From NCBI RefSeq assembly GCF_016904885.1, contig NZ_JADWYI010000001.1, positions 9,047,224 to 9,111,223 on the forward strand: DNA of 64,000 nt, given 5' to 3'. The notes beneath the pieces were generated by a model. The model saw only the letters and a program-made list of their open reading frames with translations. It was not told where the DNA came from and did no database searches. This DNA is from Archangium primigenium. Lineage in GTDB: Bacteria > Myxococcota > Myxococcia > Myxococcales > Myxococcaceae. Each line of letters begins with the position of its first letter. The stretch's first letter is position 1. Both the position numbers and the translations under genes were made by a program. Below, piece after piece: positions 835 through 10,030 of this stretch.

Positions 835-1937
835 GGCCTACCCTCCTTCAATCCCACCCAGAGCAATGACATGCGGCCTCCCGAATCCAATGCGTAGGTC
901 CGCCCCCGCCAGGTCACCCGGGGGGCCCGCACGAGGGAGGAAACGAAGGCGGCCAATAGCAGGGCCTCGCCCAACAGCCAGTCGGCCCCCTGGAACGTGC
1001 CCGGCTCGCCGGACGCGCTCAACACCGCCAGCCGCCAGGACAACAGCGAGCGCACGGCCACGAGCCCCAGCACGCCCAGCGCCAGCGGGGCCGAGCCCCC
1101 GAGCAGGGCCAGGGCCAGCAAGGGCCAGGTGGGCGTGAAGAGCAGCGGCACCGTCGGGTAGAGGCCCGGACGGTGGCTGCGCAGCACCTGCATCCACCGG
1201 GTGAAGCGCTCCTGGGCGGCGCGCCAGTCTCCCGCGGCGAGCGGCACCCGCGCGGGCACCTCGCACAGCGCCACGCCGAGCCCCCGCGCGTACAGCCGCT
1301 TGGACAGCTCCAGGTCCTCGCCGATGTGGTCCGCCAGCGCGGGCAGCTCCTCGAGCGCCGCCGGCCCCAGGCCCAGCGCCTTGCCGCACACCGCCTGGGC
1401 GCCCGCGCTCATCACGTGCAGGGCCCGGAAGCTGTGGTGCGTGCGGCGCAGCAGGCCCGCCACCGCGCGTCCGGAGAGGCCCCGGGCCTCCACCGGCGTG
1501 GGCACCGCCGTGCTCAGCGCCACACCCGCCGCCACGGGCGCCGCCAGCCCCCGCACCAGCGCGCCCGTCACCGCCACGTCCGCGTCCACCACCAACACCA
1601 CCCGCCCCTCGCGCGGCAGCGTGTCGAGCGCGTGCAGCACGTGCCCCACCTTGCGGTTGGGCGTCCGGGGCTCGCTCGGCACCCAGCGCACGCCCTCGGG
1701 CAGCGCGGGACGCGTGGGCGAGAGCACCACCTGCTCGAGGGGCCCCGCGTAGTCGATGGGCGCCGCCAGGTTCTCCAGCTCCCGCGCGCTGGGCGCATCC
1801 ATGGGGCGCAGGAGCAGCACCGGTACGTGCGTGGACGCCCCCGGGCCCCGGGGGCGCATCAGCCGCGCCAGCGCCACCGCGCTGAAGCCCGCGGCCAGCA
1901 CCACCCACCCCAGGCCCAGGACCGTCCCCGCGCTCAT
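831..1937 (-). CDS. GT21-like membrane glycosyltransferase, probable carotenoid glycosyltransferase
   Basis: The 368-residue product has one N-terminal membrane segment (residues 5-27), a GT-A type catalytic domain and hydrophobic C-terminal segments, the layout of ceramide glucosyltransferase/HpnI-like GT21 enzymes. The hallmark residues are present: the VVDADV pair (D118, D120), GEDLEL further on, and QERFTRW as the (Q/R)xxRW motif. It sits between crtC and crtYc with 4-base overlaps on both sides; this is the orf6 position of the M. xanthus carB operon as I recall it. Myxobacterial carotenoids (myxobacton, myxobactin) carry a glucose linked to a hydroxyl made by CrtC, so the inferred job is glycosylation of the hydroxylated carotenoid. 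The acceptor is not shown by the sequence. Confidence 0.7.
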   Translation of the reverse strand: MSAGTVLGLGWVVLAAGFSAVALARLMRPRGPGASTHVPVLLLRPMDAPSARELENLAAPIDYAGPLEQVVLSPTRPALPEGVRWVPSEPRTPNRKVGHVLHALDTLPREGRVVLVVDADVAVTGALVRGLAAPVAAGVALSTAVPTPVEARGLSGRAVAGLLRRTHHSFRALHVMSAGAQAVCGKALGLGPAALEELPALADHIGEDLELSKRLYARGLGVALCEVPARVPLAAGDWRAAQERFTRWMQVLRSHRPGLYPTVPLLFTPTWPLLALALLGGSAPLALGVLGLVAVRSLLSWRLAVLSASGEPGTFQGADWLLGEALLLAAFVSSLVRAPRVTWRGRTYALDSGGRMSLLWVGLKEGRP

Positions 1938-2908
1938 GCCTGACGCTCCACGCGCGTGCGGAAGTGCGCCATCCAGCGGATGTAGGGCGAGTGGAAGCGC
2001 TGGAAGTCGGCCACCTCCCCCATCACGTCCAGGCCGCCGCGCCGCGCCTCCAGGCGGGCGTAGAAGGGCGAGGACTCGATGAGGTGGGGCTCGGTGCGCA
2101 CCGTGGGGCCCGCGCTCAGGTGCTGGGGCACCCGCAGGCCCCAGCCCGTCAGCCGCGAGGGCCGCGTCCCGGCGTGCAGCGGCGAGCGCTCCGCGCGCGT
2201 CACCCCGCCGCCCGACGTCACGCGCAGCGGCGCCACGCCGCCTGGCAGGTGGTACTCCACCACCGTCTCGTCCGGCCCGTGCAGCCGCGCCCAGTGCCAG
2301 CCCGGCAGGCGCGAGCCCAGGAGCTCCGCGCCGTGGTTGGTGTCGTGGTAGCCGCGGCCGTCGGCGTCCACGCCCAGCGTCGACACTTCCAGCCGCGCCG
2401 AGGAGCGGGGCGCCAGGGCCCGCCAGTAATGGGGCACCCCGGGCACGAGCTGCACCTCCTCCGCCGCGGGCGCCTCGGGCGTGAGCAGCAGCCGGGCCCG
2501 CATCTGGCCGCCGAAGGGCGCGCACCGCTCGTCCACCTCCATGCTCACCCGGCCCTCCGGGGTGTACACGAGCCGCGAGCGGCCGATGCGCAGCTCCCGG
2601 CCCGCCATCCCCACGGACGCGTGCGCGTACTCGCTGAGCACCCAGCACAGGCGGCGCCCGCCCCGGTAGAGCGCGAAGTTCACCGCGCTGTGCCCCAGGG
2701 GCAGCGCCCCCCGACTCACCCCCACCGAGTAGCGGGGGGAGAAGAGCGAGCCGAGCATGAAGATGAAGACGGCGCTGTACTCGCCCACCGTCGCGTCGGC
2801 GTAGAACCAGCGATAGGCCCCCGGGCGGTCCGGCAGGTGGGGCAGCCCGTCACGCCACTGGTAGCCCCGATGGGCGCTGGGCACGGAGACCTCGTCCAGG
2901 AGCCTCAT
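1934..2908 (-). CDS. crtC: Carotenoid 1,2-hydratase CrtC
   Basis: The 324-residue product belongs to the hydroxyneurosporene synthase (CrtC) family, which adds water across the terminal 1,2 double bond of acyclic carotenoid ends and makes the tertiary hydroxyl later glycosylated. The recognisable part is the YHDTNHG stretch in the middle of the protein, the equivalent of the YHDHNYG-type motif of the family, in a beta-rich lipocalin-like sequence. There is no signal peptide. The start at 2908 overlaps the crtD stop as ATGA. The neighbouring crtD provides the 3,4-desaturation that usually accompanies this hydration, and the downstream glycosyltransferase would use the product. Confidence 0.85.
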   Translation of the reverse strand: MRLLDEVSVPSAHRGYQWRDGLPHLPDRPGAYRWFYADATVGEYSAVFIFMLGSLFSPRYSVGVSRGALPLGHSAVNFALYRGGRRLCWVLSEYAHASVGMAGRELRIGRSRLVYTPEGRVSMEVDERCAPFGGQMRARLLLTPEAPAAEEVQLVPGVPHYWRALAPRSSARLEVSTLGVDADGRGYHDTNHGAELLGSRLPGWHWARLHGPDETVVEYHLPGGVAPLRVTSGGGVTRAERSPLHAGTRPSRLTGWGLRVPQHLSAGPTVRTEPHLIESSPFYARLEARRGGLDVMGEVADFQRFHSPYIRWMAHFRTRVERQA

Positions 2909-4362
2909 GCGACCTCCCTCAAGTGGTTGGAGGCCATGCGCGCGGCGAATTGGCCCGACAGCATCACCATGGGCACGCCCCCGCCCGGGTGCGTGCCGCC
3001 TCCCGCGTAGAACAGGCCCGGCGTGGCGCCGCGGATGCGCGGCCGCCGGAAGGCCCCGAAGCGGCCATGCGGCAGGAAGCCGTAGATGGAGCCGCCCGGC
3101 GCGCCCAGCGCCGCCAGGTCCACCGGCGAGCGCTGCCCCACCACCCGCATGCGCCCGCGCAGCTCCGGGTAGTGCTTGAGCAGCTTCTCCATCATCTGCC
3201 GCTTCACCCGCTCGGCGTGCAGCTCCCACGCGGCGCTCGCCTGCTCCGCGGCCTCGGGCGCCTGGGGCAGGGCCGGGGCGTTCACCATGACGAACAGGCC
3301 CGTCTTGCCCGCGGGCGCCACCGTGTCATCCGTGGCCGAGGGGTTGCAGAAGTACACCGTGGGGTCCTCGGGCAGCTCCCCCGCGAAGAGCGCGTCGAAC
3401 TCGTGCCGGTAGTTGCCGCCGAAGAGCACCGTGTGGTGCGGCAGCGCCGGACGGCCGTCCACCTCCAAGAGCAGCACGTACCCCGACAGCGACAGCGGCT
3501 CCTTGCCCCGCCCCAGGCCCGCGAGCGGATCCGCGTTCACCACCACGGAGTCGAAGGGCTCCTCGGCCCCGCTCGGGCCCACGCGGTAGCCCTGGGCCTC
3601 CCGCGTGTAGCGCACCCGGGTGTTCAGGTGGATGCGCACCCCTTGCCGCGCCACCGCCGCCCCGAGCGCGTCCACCAGCGCGCCCATGCCGCCGCGCACG
3701 TGGTGCACGCCATAGACGCGCTCGATGTGCGGGATGAGGGCGAAGGCCGCGCTCGCCTCGTAGGGCGATGCCCCGGTGTACGTGGCGAAGCGGCCCACGA
3801 ACTGCCATAGATGTTCCGTCTTGAAGTGAGCCCGCGCGAGCTGATCCATCGTGGCCAGCTTCATGCCCCGGGCCATGGCCACCATGCCCCGGCGCAGCAC
3901 GCGCGCCATGAAGCCCGTCATCCCCTCGAAGGGGGCCTCCAGGTAGGGCTCGCCCGCGGCGCGCCAGATGCGCTCGGCCTCCGCGTAGAAGCCATACACG
4001 CCGCGCTTCTCGCTCGGCCACAGCGCCCCGGCGCTCTCCGCCGTGCGGTCCAGGTCGCGGTGCGCCACGAAGCCGCACCCGTCCGGGTAGCGGTAGGTGC
4101 ACTGCGCCTCCAGCTCGGAGAACGGCGGCAGCAAATCCGCGGCCCCCAGGCCCTCGAACACCTCGCGCACCACGTGGGGCAGCGTGAGCAGCGTGGGCCC
4201 GGTGTCCAGCCGCAGCCCGTCCACCTGGACGCTCTGCGCCTTGCCGCCCAGGGACGCGCTGCCCTCGAAGAGCGTGACGTCATGTCCCTCGCGCGCCAGG
4301 AGTCCGGCGGCCGTCAGGCCCCCGATGCCACCACCCACCACCGCCACCCGCGTGGATTTCAT
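2905..4362 (-). CDS. crtD: Carotenoid desaturase of the CrtI/CrtD family, probable 3,4-desaturase
   Basis: The 485-residue flavoprotein starts with a dinucleotide-binding fold (VAVVGGGIGGLTAA, residues 6-19) followed by an acidic residue ending the second strand. It carries the C-terminal CrtI signature GLFYAGGGTHPGGGVPMVM. It is clearly paralogous to the other CrtI-type enzyme of the operon (6715-8262). I call it CrtD because it sits next to crtC, where the M. xanthus operon as I recall it has its orf4/crtD, and because the hydratase and 3,4-desaturase work together. A role in phytoene desaturation cannot be excluded; M. xanthus uses two CrtI enzymes, one encoded outside the operon. The start overlaps the HMG-CoA reductase stop as ATGA. 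Confidence 0.8.
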   Translation of the reverse strand: MKSTRVAVVGGGIGGLTAAGLLAREGHDVTLFEGSASLGGKAQSVQVDGLRLDTGPTLLTLPHVVREVFEGLGAADLLPPFSELEAQCTYRYPDGCGFVAHRDLDRTAESAGALWPSEKRGVYGFYAEAERIWRAAGEPYLEAPFEGMTGFMARVLRRGMVAMARGMKLATMDQLARAHFKTEHLWQFVGRFATYTGASPYEASAAFALIPHIERVYGVHHVRGGMGALVDALGAAVARQGVRIHLNTRVRYTREAQGYRVGPSGAEEPFDSVVVNADPLAGLGRGKEPLSLSGYVLLLEVDGRPALPHHTVLFGGNYRHEFDALFAGELPEDPTVYFCNPSATDDTVAPAGKTGLFVMVNAPALPQAPEAAEQASAAWELHAERVKRQMMEKLLKHYPELRGRMRVVGQRSPVDLAALGAPGGSIYGFLPHGRFGAFRRPRIRGATPGLFYAGGGTHPGGGVPMVMLSGQFAARMASNHLREVA

Positions 4363-5681
4363 TGCACCGCTCCTTGCTGCTGGCGGACTTCGTCGAGGAT
4401 TTCCCGCGCCCGCTCCGGGCGGTAGACGCGCTCACGCGCGAGCTGCTCGGCCACCACGGCCACCCACTCGCCCTCGGCGCCGGCCTCGGCCGCCACGCGC
4501 CGCGCGTGCAGCGCCATGTGGCCCTTCTGGATGCCCTCGGTGGACAGCGCCTTGAGCGCGGCCAGGTTGGTGGCGAGCCCCGCCGCCGCGGCGAGCCCCG
4601 CCAGGTCCAGCGCCCCCGACACGCCCGCGAGCTTGAGCGCCCGGAGCACGCCGGGATGGGTGCGCGCCGCGCCGCCCACGGTGGAGGTCGCCAGCGGCAT
4701 CTCCAGGAGGCCCCGGAGCGCGCCGTCCTCGCCCGCGCGCCAGGTGGTCAGCGGCCGGTACACGCCCGAGCGCGCCGCCCACGCGTGCGCGCCCGCCTCC
4801 ACCGCGCGCCAGTCGTTGCCGCATGCCACCAGCACGCCGTCCACGCCGTTCATCACGCCCTTGTTGTGGGTGACGGCCCGGTACGGGTCGAGTTCGGCGA
4901 AGCGCTGGGCCTCGAGGATGGCGTCGCGCACGGCGCCACCGTCGGCGAAGCCCTCGGACACGAGCGCGTCCGCCGGCACCGAGGCCCGCACGTACACCTT
5001 GCGGCGATCCGCCAGGTTGGTGAGGATCTTCAACCCCGCGCGGCCCCCCGAGAGCGCCACGAACCGGGGCGCCATCTTCTCCGCGAGCCCGTTGACGAGG
5101 TTGGCCCCCATGGCGTCGCGGGTGTCCACGTGCAGGTGCACCACGAGCGTGGTGGCGTCCAGCACGCGCACCTCCAGCTCGCGCACCCCGCCGCCCCGGG
5201 CGCACATGGGCCCCAGGTGCGAGTTGGCCTCCCCGAGCAGCTCCGGGAAGCGCGCGCGCAGCGCGGCCTCGGCCTCGGCGGGCGAGCGCACGTCGAGCAG
5301 TTGCACCTGGGCGGTGGTGATGGGCTCGTCCGCCGTCACCTCGAAGCCGCCGTGCTCGGCGCACAGCCGCGCCGCGTAGCTCGCCGCGGCGATGATGGAC
5401 GGCTCCTCCACCGCCATGGGCACCAGCCGCTCCTGCCCGTTCACCCGGAAGTTGAGCGCCAGCCCGAGCGGCAGGCCATGCAGGCCGATGACGTTCTCCA
5501 CCATCGTGTCCGCGCACGCCTCGTCGAAGCCCGCCAGGCTCGCGCACGCCTCGGCCTCCTCGGCGGACAGCCACCGCGACTCCACCAGCCGCGTGCGCCG
5601 CTGCGCGGGCGTCTGCCGGTAGAAGCCCGACAGGCGCGAGGAGCGCGGCGGTCGCAGGGGATGCACCTTGTCGTCACTCAT
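4359..5681 (-). CDS. mvaA: HMG-CoA reductase (class II type) inside the carotenoid operon
   Basis: The 440-residue soluble enzyme reduces HMG-CoA to mevalonate, the committed step of the mevalonate route to isoprenoids. It has no membrane anchor and resembles class II bacterial reductases: VENVIG (residues 61-66), VEEPSIIAA with the catalytic glutamate (E92/E93), THNKGVMNG with the catalytic lysine (K274), GNDWRA with the catalytic aspartate (D290) and HMALHAR with the catalytic histidine (H388). All four catalytic positions are therefore intact. It is embedded between crtB and crtD with 4-base overlaps on both sides, so precursor supply would be induced together with pigment synthesis. I do not remember an HMG-CoA reductase at this place in the M. 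xanthus operon. Confidence 0.93.
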   Translation of the reverse strand: MSDDKVHPLRPPRSSRLSGFYRQTPAQRRTRLVESRWLSAEEAEACASLAGFDEACADTMVENVIGLHGLPLGLALNFRVNGQERLVPMAVEEPSIIAAASYAARLCAEHGGFEVTADEPITTAQVQLLDVRSPAEAEAALRARFPELLGEANSHLGPMCARGGGVRELEVRVLDATTLVVHLHVDTRDAMGANLVNGLAEKMAPRFVALSGGRAGLKILTNLADRRKVYVRASVPADALVSEGFADGGAVRDAILEAQRFAELDPYRAVTHNKGVMNGVDGVLVACGNDWRAVEAGAHAWAARSGVYRPLTTWRAGEDGALRGLLEMPLATSTVGGAARTHPGVLRALKLAGVSGALDLAGLAAAAGLATNLAALKALSTEGIQKGHMALHARRVAAEAGAEGEWVAVVAEQLARERVYRPERAREILDEVRQQQGAVQ

Positions 5682-6718
5682 CGCACGGTCCCTGTCGTGG
5701 GTTCGGGGGAGAGCAGGGGCACCTTGCTCTTGCCCTGGGCGCCGGGAGCCGGCAGCGCCATGAGCGGCACCGCCGACGGCAGGAACAGCACCTGGGCCGC
5801 CAGCGCCAGCTTGCGCGGCTTGGTCACGAACGAGCGGCCGTGGAACACGTCGTAGTCGCGCGCCTCGATGACGCGCAGGATGTCCCCGTAGATGGCGCCC
5901 ATCAGCTTCACCATGCGCTGGGCCCCGAAGCCCTGGAGCGCCGGAATCCCCTCGGCCGCGCGCGCGTAGTAGGCGCGCGCCCGGGCGATCTGCGCGCGCA
6001 TGAAGGCGCGCCAGCGGTCATCCACCACGCCCCGGCGCAGGTCCTCCACGCTCAGCCCGTACGCGGCCAGCTCCTCCAGGGGCAGGTACACGCGGTCGCG
6101 CTCCAGGTCCTCGCCCACGTCGCGCAGGATGTTGGTGAGCTGCATGCCCCGGCCCAGGTCCGCCGCCGGCCCCAGCGCCCACTCCTCCGAGCACCCGAGC
6201 ATGGCCGCCATCATCAGCCCCACCACGCCCGCCACCCGGTAGCAGTACAGGTCGAGCTGGGAGGCCGTCTCGTAGCGGCGCAGCGTCAGGTCCATCTCCA
6301 TGCCAGAGATGAGCTCCTGCATGGGGTACTCGGGCACGCGGAAGCGGCGGATGCAGTCCACGAGCGCCGCCATCTCGGCGGGGTGCCACGGCCCCTCGCC
6401 GCCCGAGGCGCGCGTGGAGGGCGGCGGCATGCGCGGGTCCGCCAGCTCGGGCGTCTCCAGGTACAGCTCCGCCACCGCCCGGCGCGCGCGCACCAGCCGC
6501 TCGGCCAGGTCCTCGGGCACCGCGCCCTTGTCCGCTCCGTCCGCCACGTCGACCATGTCGTCGAGCCGTCGGCAGAAGGCGTAGAGCGCGAACGCCGCCT
6601 TGCGCCGCATGCCAAAGAGCATGAACGAGGCGAAGAAGAAGCTCTTGGCGTGATGTCGCGTCACGCGCTCCGCCATCTTGTACCCCTCAGCCACCAGGCT
6701 CTCGTCCCGCGACGTCAT
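5678..6718 (-). CDS. crtB: Phytoene synthase CrtB
   Basis: The 346-residue enzyme condenses two geranylgeranyl diphosphates head to head into phytoene, the first C40 carotenoid. It belongs to the squalene/phytoene synthase family and keeps both metal-binding aspartate motifs: RRLDDMVD (D53-D57) and the second motif within LTNILRDVGEDLERDR. The C-terminal ~60 residues are proline-rich and not part of the conserved fold. The ATG at 6718 overlaps the crtI stop and its own stop overlaps the HMG-CoA reductase start. The intact motifs contrast with the degenerate ones of the prenyl synthase homologue at the head of the operon. Confidence 0.95.
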   Translation of the reverse strand: MTSRDESLVAEGYKMAERVTRHHAKSFFFASFMLFGMRRKAAFALYAFCRRLDDMVDVADGADKGAVPEDLAERLVRARRAVAELYLETPELADPRMPPPSTRASGGEGPWHPAEMAALVDCIRRFRVPEYPMQELISGMEMDLTLRRYETASQLDLYCYRVAGVVGLMMAAMLGCSEEWALGPAADLGRGMQLTNILRDVGEDLERDRVYLPLEELAAYGLSVEDLRRGVVDDRWRAFMRAQIARARAYYARAAEGIPALQGFGAQRMVKLMGAIYGDILRVIEARDYDVFHGRSFVTKPRKLALAAQVLFLPSAVPLMALPAPGAQGKSKVPLLSPEPTTGTVR

Positions 6719-8262
6719 GCCGCCTCCTCCAGAGATTCACGCCCGGTCCCCCCAGGCTCGCGCACCGTACTCACACCCGCCCCCGTCCACTGCAGAATCC
6801 GCTCCACCGCCAGCCGCGCGGAGATCATCACCGTGGGCAGTCCCGTGCCCGGCTGCGTGGAGGCCCCCACGAAGAAGAGGTTCTTCACCCGCGGGTCCTG
6901 GTTGGACGGACGGAAGGGGCCAATCTGGAAGAAGTTCTGCGCGAGCCCGAACGCGCTGCCCTTGGCCAGGTTGAAGCTCGTGGCCCAGTCGTCCGGCGTC
7001 ACCACGCGCTCCACCTCGATGTCCCGCTCCAGGTCCGGGAAGCCCAGCTCCCCGAGCCGCTCGAAGACCTTGGCGCGCACCCGGGGGCCCTCGACCTTCC
7101 AGTCCAGGCCCGAGTGCTGGTGCGGCACGGGCACCAGCACGTAGAGCGCGTCCTTGCCCGGCGGCGCCATGCTGGGGTCGGTGTGGGCCGGGGCGTTGAC
7201 GTAGAAGCTCGGATCCTCGGGCACGCGGAAGCGCTCGAAGATGTCGTCGAACGAGCCCTTGTAGTCCCGACCGAAGTAGACGTTGTGGTGCAGGAAGCCG
7301 TCGTAGCGCTTCTTCATGCCCAGGTAGAGCATGTAGCCGCTGGAGGTGTAGCGCAGCGAGTCCTTGCGCTTGAGCCGCGTGACGGACGGATCGAGCAGCT
7401 TCTCGTACGCGTAGGGAAGGTCCGCGTTGCACACCACCACGTCCGCCTTGACCACCTCGCCGTCCGCGAGCCGCACCCCCGTGGTGCGCTTGCCCTCGGT
7501 GAGGATGCGCTCCACGGGACGGCCGTAGTGCAGGTGCACGCCCTCCTCGCGCGCCACCTTCTCCAGCGCCAGGGGAATGGCGTACAGGCCGCCCTTGGGG
7601 AACCACACCCCCACGCCCAGCTCCGTGAAGGGCAGGAGCGCGAACACGCCCGGCGCCGCGTAGGGCGACACGCCCAGGTACATGGACTGGAACGTCATCG
7701 CCGCGCGCAGCCGCTCGTCCTTGAAGAAGCGCCCCACGTCCGAGTACATGCGCCGGTGGGCCCGCACCTCGAACACGCGCTTGAGCACCGAGGGCACGAA
7801 GTAGTCGGAGATGCCCGAGTAGTTGCGCCCCACCAGGTGGTCCAGGCCCGTGCGGTACTGGGTGCGGCCCTGGGCGAGGAAGGCCAGGTAGCGCTGGAAG
7901 CTGCCGGGCTCCACCCGCTCCAGCTCGCGCCCCATGGCGCACAGCTCCGAGGTGAAGGTGATGACCGAGCCGTCCCGGTAGTGGATGCGGTAGTTGGGAT
8001 CGCACCGCTCCAGCGTGAGGTAGTCCTCCATGCGCCGGCCCAGCGCGGTGAACGTCTCCTGGAACACCTCGGGCATGAGCACGATGGTGGGGCCCAGGTC
8101 CCAGGTGAAGCCGTCCACCTTGATTTGGTTGCAGCGGCCCCCCGGCCCGTTCGTCTTCTCGAAGAGGTGGACCTCGAAGCCGGCGTGGGCCAGCCGCGCC
8201 GCGGCGGACAGTCCGCCCACTCCGGCGCCCACCACCACCGCCTGTTGTTTGCCTGGCTTCAC
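6715..8262 (-). CDS. crtI: Phytoene desaturase CrtI (CrtIb type)
   Basis: The 515-residue FAD-dependent desaturase introduces double bonds into phytoene. It has an N-terminal dinucleotide fold (AVVVGAGVGGLSAA, about residues 8-21) and the C-terminal CrtI signature FFVGASTQPGTGLPTVM. The start is a GTG at 8262, overlapping the crtE stop as GTGA; a strong GAGAGGAGAA ribosome site precedes it and the FAD fold begins directly after it, so longer upstream frames are not genuine. By position it matches crtIb (orf2) of the M. xanthus carB operon as I remember it, where a second desaturase, CrtIa (carC), is encoded elsewhere; no third CrtI gene is present in this window. Confidence 0.93.
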   Translation of the reverse strand: MKPGKQQAVVVGAGVGGLSAAARLAHAGFEVHLFEKTNGPGGRCNQIKVDGFTWDLGPTIVLMPEVFQETFTALGRRMEDYLTLERCDPNYRIHYRDGSVITFTSELCAMGRELERVEPGSFQRYLAFLAQGRTQYRTGLDHLVGRNYSGISDYFVPSVLKRVFEVRAHRRMYSDVGRFFKDERLRAAMTFQSMYLGVSPYAAPGVFALLPFTELGVGVWFPKGGLYAIPLALEKVAREEGVHLHYGRPVERILTEGKRTTGVRLADGEVVKADVVVCNADLPYAYEKLLDPSVTRLKRKDSLRYTSSGYMLYLGMKKRYDGFLHHNVYFGRDYKGSFDDIFERFRVPEDPSFYVNAPAHTDPSMAPPGKDALYVLVPVPHQHSGLDWKVEGPRVRAKVFERLGELGFPDLERDIEVERVVTPDDWATSFNLAKGSAFGLAQNFFQIGPFRPSNQDPRVKNLFFVGASTQPGTGLPTVMISARLAVERILQWTGAGVSTVREPGGTGRESLEEAA

Positions 8263-9344
8263 GGTGCTTCTCCTCTCACGGACTGATGGGCCATGGGCCC
8301 GATGAGCGCCTGCAACAGGTCGCGCACGCCCTGCGGATTGGGCAGGGACGCGAGCGCCCGGAGCGCCATGAATGTCGAGCGCGCCATCACCGACTCGGTG
8401 GCCGCGAATCCGCCCGCGTCCTCCACCAGGCCGCGCACCCGCGCGAGGCTCGCGCCCTCCCGCGCCTCGGGCGCCAGGTGCGCCAGGGCCCACAGCTCCT
8501 CGCGCACCTCGGGCCGCGCGCGGCACCAGGCGGCCACCAGCGGAAAGCCGCACCGGCCCTGGACAAACCCCACCCCACCGCCCGCCTCCGGGCCCTCGCC
8601 CAGTCCGGCCCCCTCGCGGCGCAGCTCCACCGTCAGCCCCACCCCGAGCCCCACCCGCGCCAGCCGCAGCCGCGTGTCCGCGTCCGCCCCGGCCAGCAGC
8701 GCCCCACAGACCAGGGAGGACGCCAGGCCCTCGCGCACGGCCCTCAAGCGCACCAGGCGCATGGCCCGCCCCACGCCGCCCGGCTCCAGGAGCCCGCCGC
8801 CCTGTTCGGCGCGGAACAGCCCGGCGCTCGTGTAACGGTGCAGGCGCAGGCAGTGCTCGCCCGCCTCGCCGGCCCCCGGCACTCCCGCCTCGAGCATGGT
8901 CTCCAGGGCCCGGGCGAAGAGATGGTCGCCCACCACCACCGCCAGGTGCTCGCCCGTCCGCTCGGGCGCGAGCCGCGCGCACAGCCCCGCCGGCCGCCGC
9001 GCATCCCCTTGCCGCAGTACCTCGTCATGGATGGCCTGGGACGCGTGCAGCAGCTCCAGCCCCGCGGCGAAGCGCCACAGCCCCGCGGGCACCACCGGCG
9101 AGCCCCGCACGAGGCAATAGCCCGCCAGGAGCAGCGCGGCCCGGGGCCGCTCGGCCGGGCGCAGCACCACGCCCCGCACCCGCGCCAGCGCCTCCGCCCA
9201 CTGCGTGTCCAGGCGCACCTCGTCCGGCAGCTCGAGCAGCCCCGCCAGCGCCCCGTCCACCTGGGCTCGGACCAACGTCAGCCAGTTCCGCTCCGCGGAG
9301 GGAGCAGGCGGGGCCGACGGGTTGATGAACGGCATGAGCCCCAT
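8259..9344 (-). CDS. crtE: CrtE-like polyprenyl synthetase homologue with degenerate active-site motifs
   Basis: This 361-residue protein has the all-helical polyprenyl synthetase layout and holds the crtE position as first gene of the operon. Recognisable stretches include ERPRAALLL, LLHASQAIHDE, VVVGDHLFARALE and a region ending GVGLTVELRRE. The first aspartate-rich motif, normally DDxxD, reads DEVLR here (residues 107-111), although the following DARR is kept. The second, normally DDxxD after GxxFQ, reads VELRREGAG (about 239-247). Magnesium-diphosphate binding as in normal GGPP synthases is therefore doubtful. It may be a non-catalytic partner, with another prenyl synthase elsewhere in the genome. 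The ATG at 9344 has an AAGGAG ribosome site 7 bases upstream. Confidence 0.75.
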   Translation of the reverse strand: MGLMPFINPSAPPAPSAERNWLTLVRAQVDGALAGLLELPDEVRLDTQWAEALARVRGVVLRPAERPRAALLLAGYCLVRGSPVVPAGLWRFAAGLELLHASQAIHDEVLRQGDARRPAGLCARLAPERTGEHLAVVVGDHLFARALETMLEAGVPGAGEAGEHCLRLHRYTSAGLFRAEQGGGLLEPGGVGRAMRLVRLRAVREGLASSLVCGALLAGADADTRLRLARVGLGVGLTVELRREGAGLGEGPEAGGGVGFVQGRCGFPLVAAWCRARPEVREELWALAHLAPEAREGASLARVRGLVEDAGGFAATESVMARSTFMALRALASLPNPQGVRDLLQALIGPMAHQSVRGEAP

Positions 9345-9383
9345 GCGGCACTCCTTCGCGATCCTGCCTACCCTCGTAAGGAG

Positions 9384-9412
9384 ATGTAAGCTTTGCGTAT
9401 AAGGTTTGTCAA
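9384..9412 (-). promoter_or_regulatory. Putative promoter of the carotenoid operon
   Basis: On the minus strand a perfect TTGACA (9412-9407) is followed after 17 bases by TTACAT (9389-9384), giving an initiation point near 9377 and a short leader before the crtE ribosome site. The -10 match is weak (3 of 6 bases), while the -35 match is perfect. The -35 box lies inside the third 11-bp operator repeat, so a bound repressor would block RNA polymerase. Confidence 0.6.
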
Positions 9413-9434
9413 GGCTATGTTCAAGGTTTGTACA
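9402..9434 (-). promoter_or_regulatory. Three contiguous 11-bp direct repeats, CarH/CarA-type operator
   Basis: Read on the minus strand, the 33 bases are three head-to-tail 11-mers: TGTACAAACCT (9434-9424), TGAACATAGCC (9423-9413) and TTGACAAACCT (9412-9402). T at position 1, ACA at positions 4-6 and A and C at positions 8-9 are kept in all three. CarH tetramers are known to bind 11-bp direct repeats that include the -35 box of carotenoid promoters, with a TnnACA core as I recall, and the same core is present here. M. xanthus encodes CarA and CarH at the downstream end of this operon, which lies outside the window. Confidence 0.7.
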
Positions 9435-10030
9435 TGACCCACTCACGACAATCCCTGAAGACCCGGCGGCTGATGGGGCTGCTGATGACCGCTCTCCTGG
9501 CCACCAGCCCAGCACTCGCCGCATCACCGGAGGCAGGCCCGATGGATGCAAGCTTGTGGAACTCGAATGGAAAGGAAGTGGCGCTGTCCAAATGGCGGGG
9601 AAAACCCGTCATTCTCTTCTACGAGGATCGCCACTCCACGACACTCAACGGCCAGCTCAAGGAGAGCCTGTTCAACCGGGGACGCCAGATGGGACTGCTC
9701 GACGCGGCCTTCGTCGTGGCGGTGGCCAACCTGGAGTCCTTCGACTTCTTCCCCGCGCGGGACATCGCGCTGTCGCACGTGCGGGACGAGGAGAAGAAGT
9801 GGAACATCCCCATCCTGGTGGACCTCAAGGGCACGATGAGCGGCGCGCCCTGGAGCCTGCCCAAGAAGACGTCCTCGGTGATGCTGCTCACCCCCGAGGG
9901 CCAGGTCGTCTTCCGCTACTCGGGTCGCATGGACCGCGAGGAGATGGACGAGTTCTTCCAGAAGCTCGGACAGCTGCTCGGGCGTGACATGGGCGCGGGC
10001 GCCGGAGCCGGCGAGGGTGCCCACCCATGA
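9434..10030 (+). CDS. Exported thioredoxin-fold (redoxin-like) protein without CxxC
   Basis: The 198-residue product has a signal peptide (basic start, hydrophobic core at about 15-29, cleavage near ALAA). A thioredoxin-like region follows, with GKPVILFYEDRHST at the place where a redoxin would carry its active site. There is no CxxC motif and no cysteine there, so it is not an ordinary thiol oxidoreductase; it resembles YtfJ/redoxin-like proteins only loosely. I use the ATG at 9434, with AAGG 7 bases upstream; a TTG two codons earlier is possible. The gene is divergent from crtE, and its ribosome site and first base lie inside the 11-bp operator repeats, so it may share the light response. 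Its stop overlaps the next gene as ATGA. Confidence 0.7.
   Translation: MTHSRQSLKTRRLMGLLMTALLATSPALAASPEAGPMDASLWNSNGKEVALSKWRGKPVILFYEDRHSTTLNGQLKESLFNRGRQMGLLDAAFVVAVANLESFDFFPARDIALSHVRDEEKKWNIPILVDLKGTMSGAPWSLPKKTSSVMLLTPEGQVVFRYSGRMDREEMDEFFQKLGQLLGRDMGAGAGAGEGAHP

Follow-up and report, generated by a model that had tools for sequence, protein, structure and literature searches.

The window, a stretch of 64,000 nucleotides of Archangium primigenium DNA, carries a carotenoid (crt) operon on its minus strand. The first gene of the operon, in the same position as in relatives, encodes a crtE-like polyprenyl (GGPP) synthase (8259–9344), followed by a crtI-type phytoene desaturase (6715–8286, TIGR02734; the 5' limit is approximate, the gene being the 3' part of a long ORF, 6715–8982), the crtB phytoene synthase (5678–6718, PF00494), a second HMG-CoA reductase lying within the carotenoid cluster (4359–5681, PF00368/TIGR00532), a crtD-type desaturase (2905–4362, NF045637/TIGR02734) and a crtC-like carotenoid 1,2-hydratase ORF (1934–3229, NF045922), whose true start is probably further in. 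Upstream of crtE, a TTGACA box was assigned as the -35 element by homology to the PB promoter of Myxococcus xanthus, and a putative -10 element, TACATC (9383–9388, minus strand), is placed 18 nt from it by its position relative to TACCTC, the -10 element of PB (PMC8156234); the crtE ATG follows 62 nt after the -35. A sigma-70 consensus scan of the region returned no promoter on either strand. On the plus strand, a divergent gene (9434–10030) is predicted to encode a secreted YtfJ/redoxin-like protein; this likeness is weak, and a solved-structure search with the protein gave no credible match.

Upstream of crtE, the first-pass annotation had described three contiguous 11-mers sharing a TnnACA core in the same register, with the -35 box in the third. 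Read from 9434 to 9402, the minus strand is TGTACAAACCT TGAACATAGCC TTGACAAACCT, letter for letter as described: the 11-mers stand head to tail, each with a TnnACA core, and the third contains TTGACA, the crtE -35. This frame begins at the T, while the published frame is nnnnTnnACAn, in which the array is longer and comprises five repeats, dr1-DR2-DR3-DR4-dr5, between 9395 and 9449, all on the minus strand. The first, dr1 (gtcgTGAGTGg, 9439–9449), is degenerate, keeping 1/4 core bases, and its register is fixed by DR2–DR4. The core is full in DR2 (gtcaTGTACAa, 9428–9438), which holds the probable start codon of the divergent gene (ATG, 9434–9436, plus strand), in DR3 (acctTGAACAt, 9417–9427), where a likely Shine-Dalgarno sequence of the same gene is found (AAGG, 9423–9426), and in DR4 (agccTTGACAa, 9406–9416), which contains the -35 TTGACA (9412–9407). 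The last repeat, dr5 (acctTATACGc, 9395–9405), keeps three of the four core bases, TnnACG being the usual form of dr5 in relatives. Cystobacterineae crt promoters (Pcrt) are recognised by at least two full tandem nnnnTnnACAn repeats and a TTGACA -35 inside DR4 upstream of crtE; here three full repeats plus dr5 are present, and the -35 lies in DR4 upstream of crtE.

We looked for the array in relatives both blindly and through crtE. The blind search with the triple pattern in 58 genomes of the family gave matches in 20, of which 14 have a crtE homologue within the same 3-kb locus; 13 of the 14 share the divergent neighbour as well. A separate crtE-based search of named genomes yielded 35 loci. 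Thirty-one Cystobacterineae promoters were aligned gap-free, anchored on TTGACA, and the best-scoring register was taken where there were several. All 31 have intact DR3 and DR4 cores and a dr5 that is either full or TnnACG, while repeats 1 and 2 are variable, as published; because of the anchoring, DR4 is conserved by construction, which holds only in part for DR3 and dr5. Core positions of repeats 2–5 carry a mean of 1.77 bits versus 1.34 bits at the other repeat positions, and the flanks carry 0.65 bits upstream and 1.00 bits downstream. Position and register are thus kept among relatives, and the lack of conservation that the first-pass annotation had named as evidence against an operator was not seen. 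Several deep-branching MAGs show related triple or double repeats closer to crtE, and two loci (L081 and L083, genomes G028 and G007) display five full tandem DR repeats at the crtE promoter, which exceeds any arrangement found in the available part of PMC9304148.

The regulator gene had been expected off the window, to the left of base 1, and a single MerR-type gene of the CarH kind is indeed found there. This carH (C1:9045752–9046660) lies 0.56 kb left of the first base, on the same strand as the operon and linked to it, as expected for a Cystobacterineae Pcrt operator, and encodes a 302 aa protein with a MerR domain and two B12-binding domains. Its best NCBIfam match is the CarH model, below threshold (137 bits against a cut-off of 400 bits), and its best solved-structure match is CarH of Thermus thermophilus. 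Residues W149 and E159-H160 align with the AdoCbl-binding Wx9EH motif and H195 with the lower-ligand histidine, so that the domains and motifs expected of a CarH photoreceptor are present. Outside the locus, CarF is encoded at C1:2694461–2694976 (PF10520, 212 bits), and a search with the NrsF anti-sigma family for CarQRS gave one weak, sub-threshold match beside a sigma factor gene.

The published operator rule (PMC9304148), the conservation across 31 genomes and the nearby carH all support the CarH-type operator proposed in the first-pass annotation. We consider it highly likely that the array is the operator-promoter of the crt operon, at which AdoCbl-CarH would repress in the dark and be released by light; CarH very probably occupies the site in the dark and keeps the carotenoid genes off. 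In the Cystobacter model, two AdoCbl-CarH dimers sit on four tandem repeats and cover the -35, and CarS can also remove CarH (PMC9304148). By analogy, CarH carrying AdoCbl, the product of a gene further along this operon, would bind cooperatively in the dark as two dimers, occupying four of the five 11-bp repeats, either dr1–DR4 or DR2–dr5, covering the TTGACA in DR4 and blocking RNA polymerase. The dr1–DR4 mode may be weaker than in Cystobacter fuscus, since dr1 keeps so little of the core. Light would break the Co-C bond of AdoCbl, CarH would fall to monomers and leave the DNA, and the operon would be expressed; removal of CarH by a CarS antirepressor may be a second route of release. Protein-DNA contact, dimer stoichiometry, release by light and the possible CarS route are carried over here from the Cystobacter work.

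As an addition to this mechanism, not an alternative, the operator may be bidirectional, with CarH repressing both crtE and the divergent gene and so making the YtfJ/redoxin-like protein part of the light response. Across the Cystobacterineae, almost all of the relatives' loci that we examined have the divergent gene head to head with crtE. The probable ATG of this gene in Myxococcus, Corallococcus and Archangium is found 50–53 nt from the edge of DR4, and many of these loci have a good ribosome-binding site in front of it. In four of four members of the genus of this genome, that codon, read by eye, is CTG without a good ribosome-binding site, and the next ATG in frame falls within DR2, at 27 nt from the edge of DR4, with DR3 supplying AAGG or AGGG. 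Since CTG here takes the place of the ATG of the other genera, we infer from the aligned loci that the start has moved about 24 nt upstream, into the operator. The divergent promoter must then overlap the operator or lie beyond it, because the start adjoins the repeats, and CarH is for the same reason predicted as a possible regulator in both directions; operators of Sorangiineae and Nannocystineae are likewise expected to serve divergent promoters (PMC9304148). Against this, the consensus scan recognised no promoter for the divergent gene, and the published Cystobacterineae work speaks of a single promoter region (PMC9304148). We therefore put dual control at somewhat below an even chance. 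That the CarH operator and the translation start of the divergent gene have become fused in this genus, with one light-released repressor governing pigment synthesis and a secreted redox-type protein, is a more tentative proposal still. In the available parts of PMC9304148 and PMC8156234, no mention of a divergent gene beside the operator was found.

The first-pass annotation had named the regulator as CarH or CarA, and its first half stands with carH adjoining the window, whereas no carA was found, either beside the operon, where a single CarH/CarA-like gene is present, or in a genome search for B12-binding_2. CarA as the main repressor would bind the same repeats without B12 and be released by CarS; indeed, CarA and CarH share one operator in M. 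xanthus (PMC8156234), and in vitro the CarA of M. xanthus also recognises the C. fuscus operator (PMC9304148). However, a CarA operator goes with carA in tandem before carH, and only one gene of this type adjoins the operon here. Of the two other B12-binding_2 matches in the genome, one is a frame of 915 codons and the other a frame of 260 codons that resembles CarH in its B12 part only; the assembly is 98.6% complete. In the same search, the carA-bearing Myxococcus, Corallococcus and Archangium loci showed two CarH/CarA-type genes in tandem, while a single gene, of the CarH type, is present here and in three further genomes of the genus (the Cystobacter/Melittangium type). We accordingly regard repression by CarA as very improbable and, as no carA was found, take CarH alone to be the regulator. 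Elsewhere in the survey, in Citreicoccus inhibens M34 (L053:17505–19740), the space between the acyltransferase-like gene and carH, which holds carA in Myxococcus and Corallococcus, is without it; CarA seems to have been lost there a second time, independently of Cystobacter/Melittangium. Five deep-branching Myxococcales MAGs (L062, L063, L064, L067 and L069) have carotenoid operons in which one CarH-like gene (48–50% identical) but no carA was seen, as would be expected if carA arose after those lineages had split off. Finally, a record titled Comamonas sp. KCTC 72670 (BNCN01000015.1, L052) contains a carotenoid operon resembling that of Myxococcus, with both carA and carH, and its name is probably wrong.

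The spaced pattern TnnACA-N5-TnnACA-N5-TnnACA has a single match in the window, none in 100 dinucleotide shuffles of it, and a single match in the 9.49-Mb genome, where the backwards control pattern also matches once; because of this control, the case for an operator rests on place and conservation and not on uniqueness. TnnACA-N5-TTGACA occurs elsewhere in the genome three times versus two for its control. With one mismatch allowed, the whole genome gave the array itself, in two registers, and one other place, C1:5378180 (AAGCCTTGAACAAGGCTT), an intergenic site that we rejected as a second CarH target and judged a terminator-like chance match, being a hairpin that directly follows a stop codon. 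That the array is itself a chance match, arising in a promoter that is AT-rich while the genome is GC-rich, is hardly credible, for although the backwards control also finds one site, the window shuffles find none, and the array has a fixed place and phase-specific conservation across 31 promoters.

The probable CarH operator of the crt operon is an already known kind of site, described and tested in close relatives, and ordinary apart from its overlap with the start of the neighbouring gene. With it, a further genome joins those in which CarH regulates carotenoids in the absence of CarA. A modest new lead comes from the divergent gene: in nearly all near relatives the operator abuts this conserved gene, which is therefore a simple candidate for another function under light and B12 control. 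The same arrangement has been described by Perez-Castano et al. (2022; PMC9304148) in C. fuscus, Cystobacter ferrugineus, Melittangium boletus and Hyalangium minutum, whose Pcrt share with the present one the order dr1-DR2-DR3-DR4-dr5, TTGACA in DR4, crtE as first gene and carH downstream in the operon. On the C. fuscus operator, EMSA and footprints revealed AdoCbl-dependent, light-sensitive binding of CarH (PMC9304148); footprint protection, whose absence the first-pass annotation would have counted against an operator, is known from this close relative. C. fuscus, C. ferrugineus and M. boletus lack carA, as this genome does, and M. boletus also has HMGR in its carotenoid cluster (PMC9304148). 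A single CarH-type gene, CarF and HMGR in the cluster, as combined here, are what Perez-Castano et al. describe for M. boletus, a likeness and not an identification. The present site appears to differ from the published Pcrt in dr1, which keeps just one core base of four, and in the divergent start inside DR2, discussion of which was not found in the available part of PMC9304148. The M. xanthus PB (carB) operator, bound by CarA and CarH, occupies the same place, with the -35 in DR4 and similar -10 spacing, but its order is DR1-dr2-DR3-DR4-dr5 and it serves two regulators versus one here. The T. thermophilus CarH operator likewise has three 11-bp TnnACA repeats in tandem, one of which includes the -35, and is bound by a CarH tetramer, whereas Cystobacter CarH binds as two dimers on four repeats.
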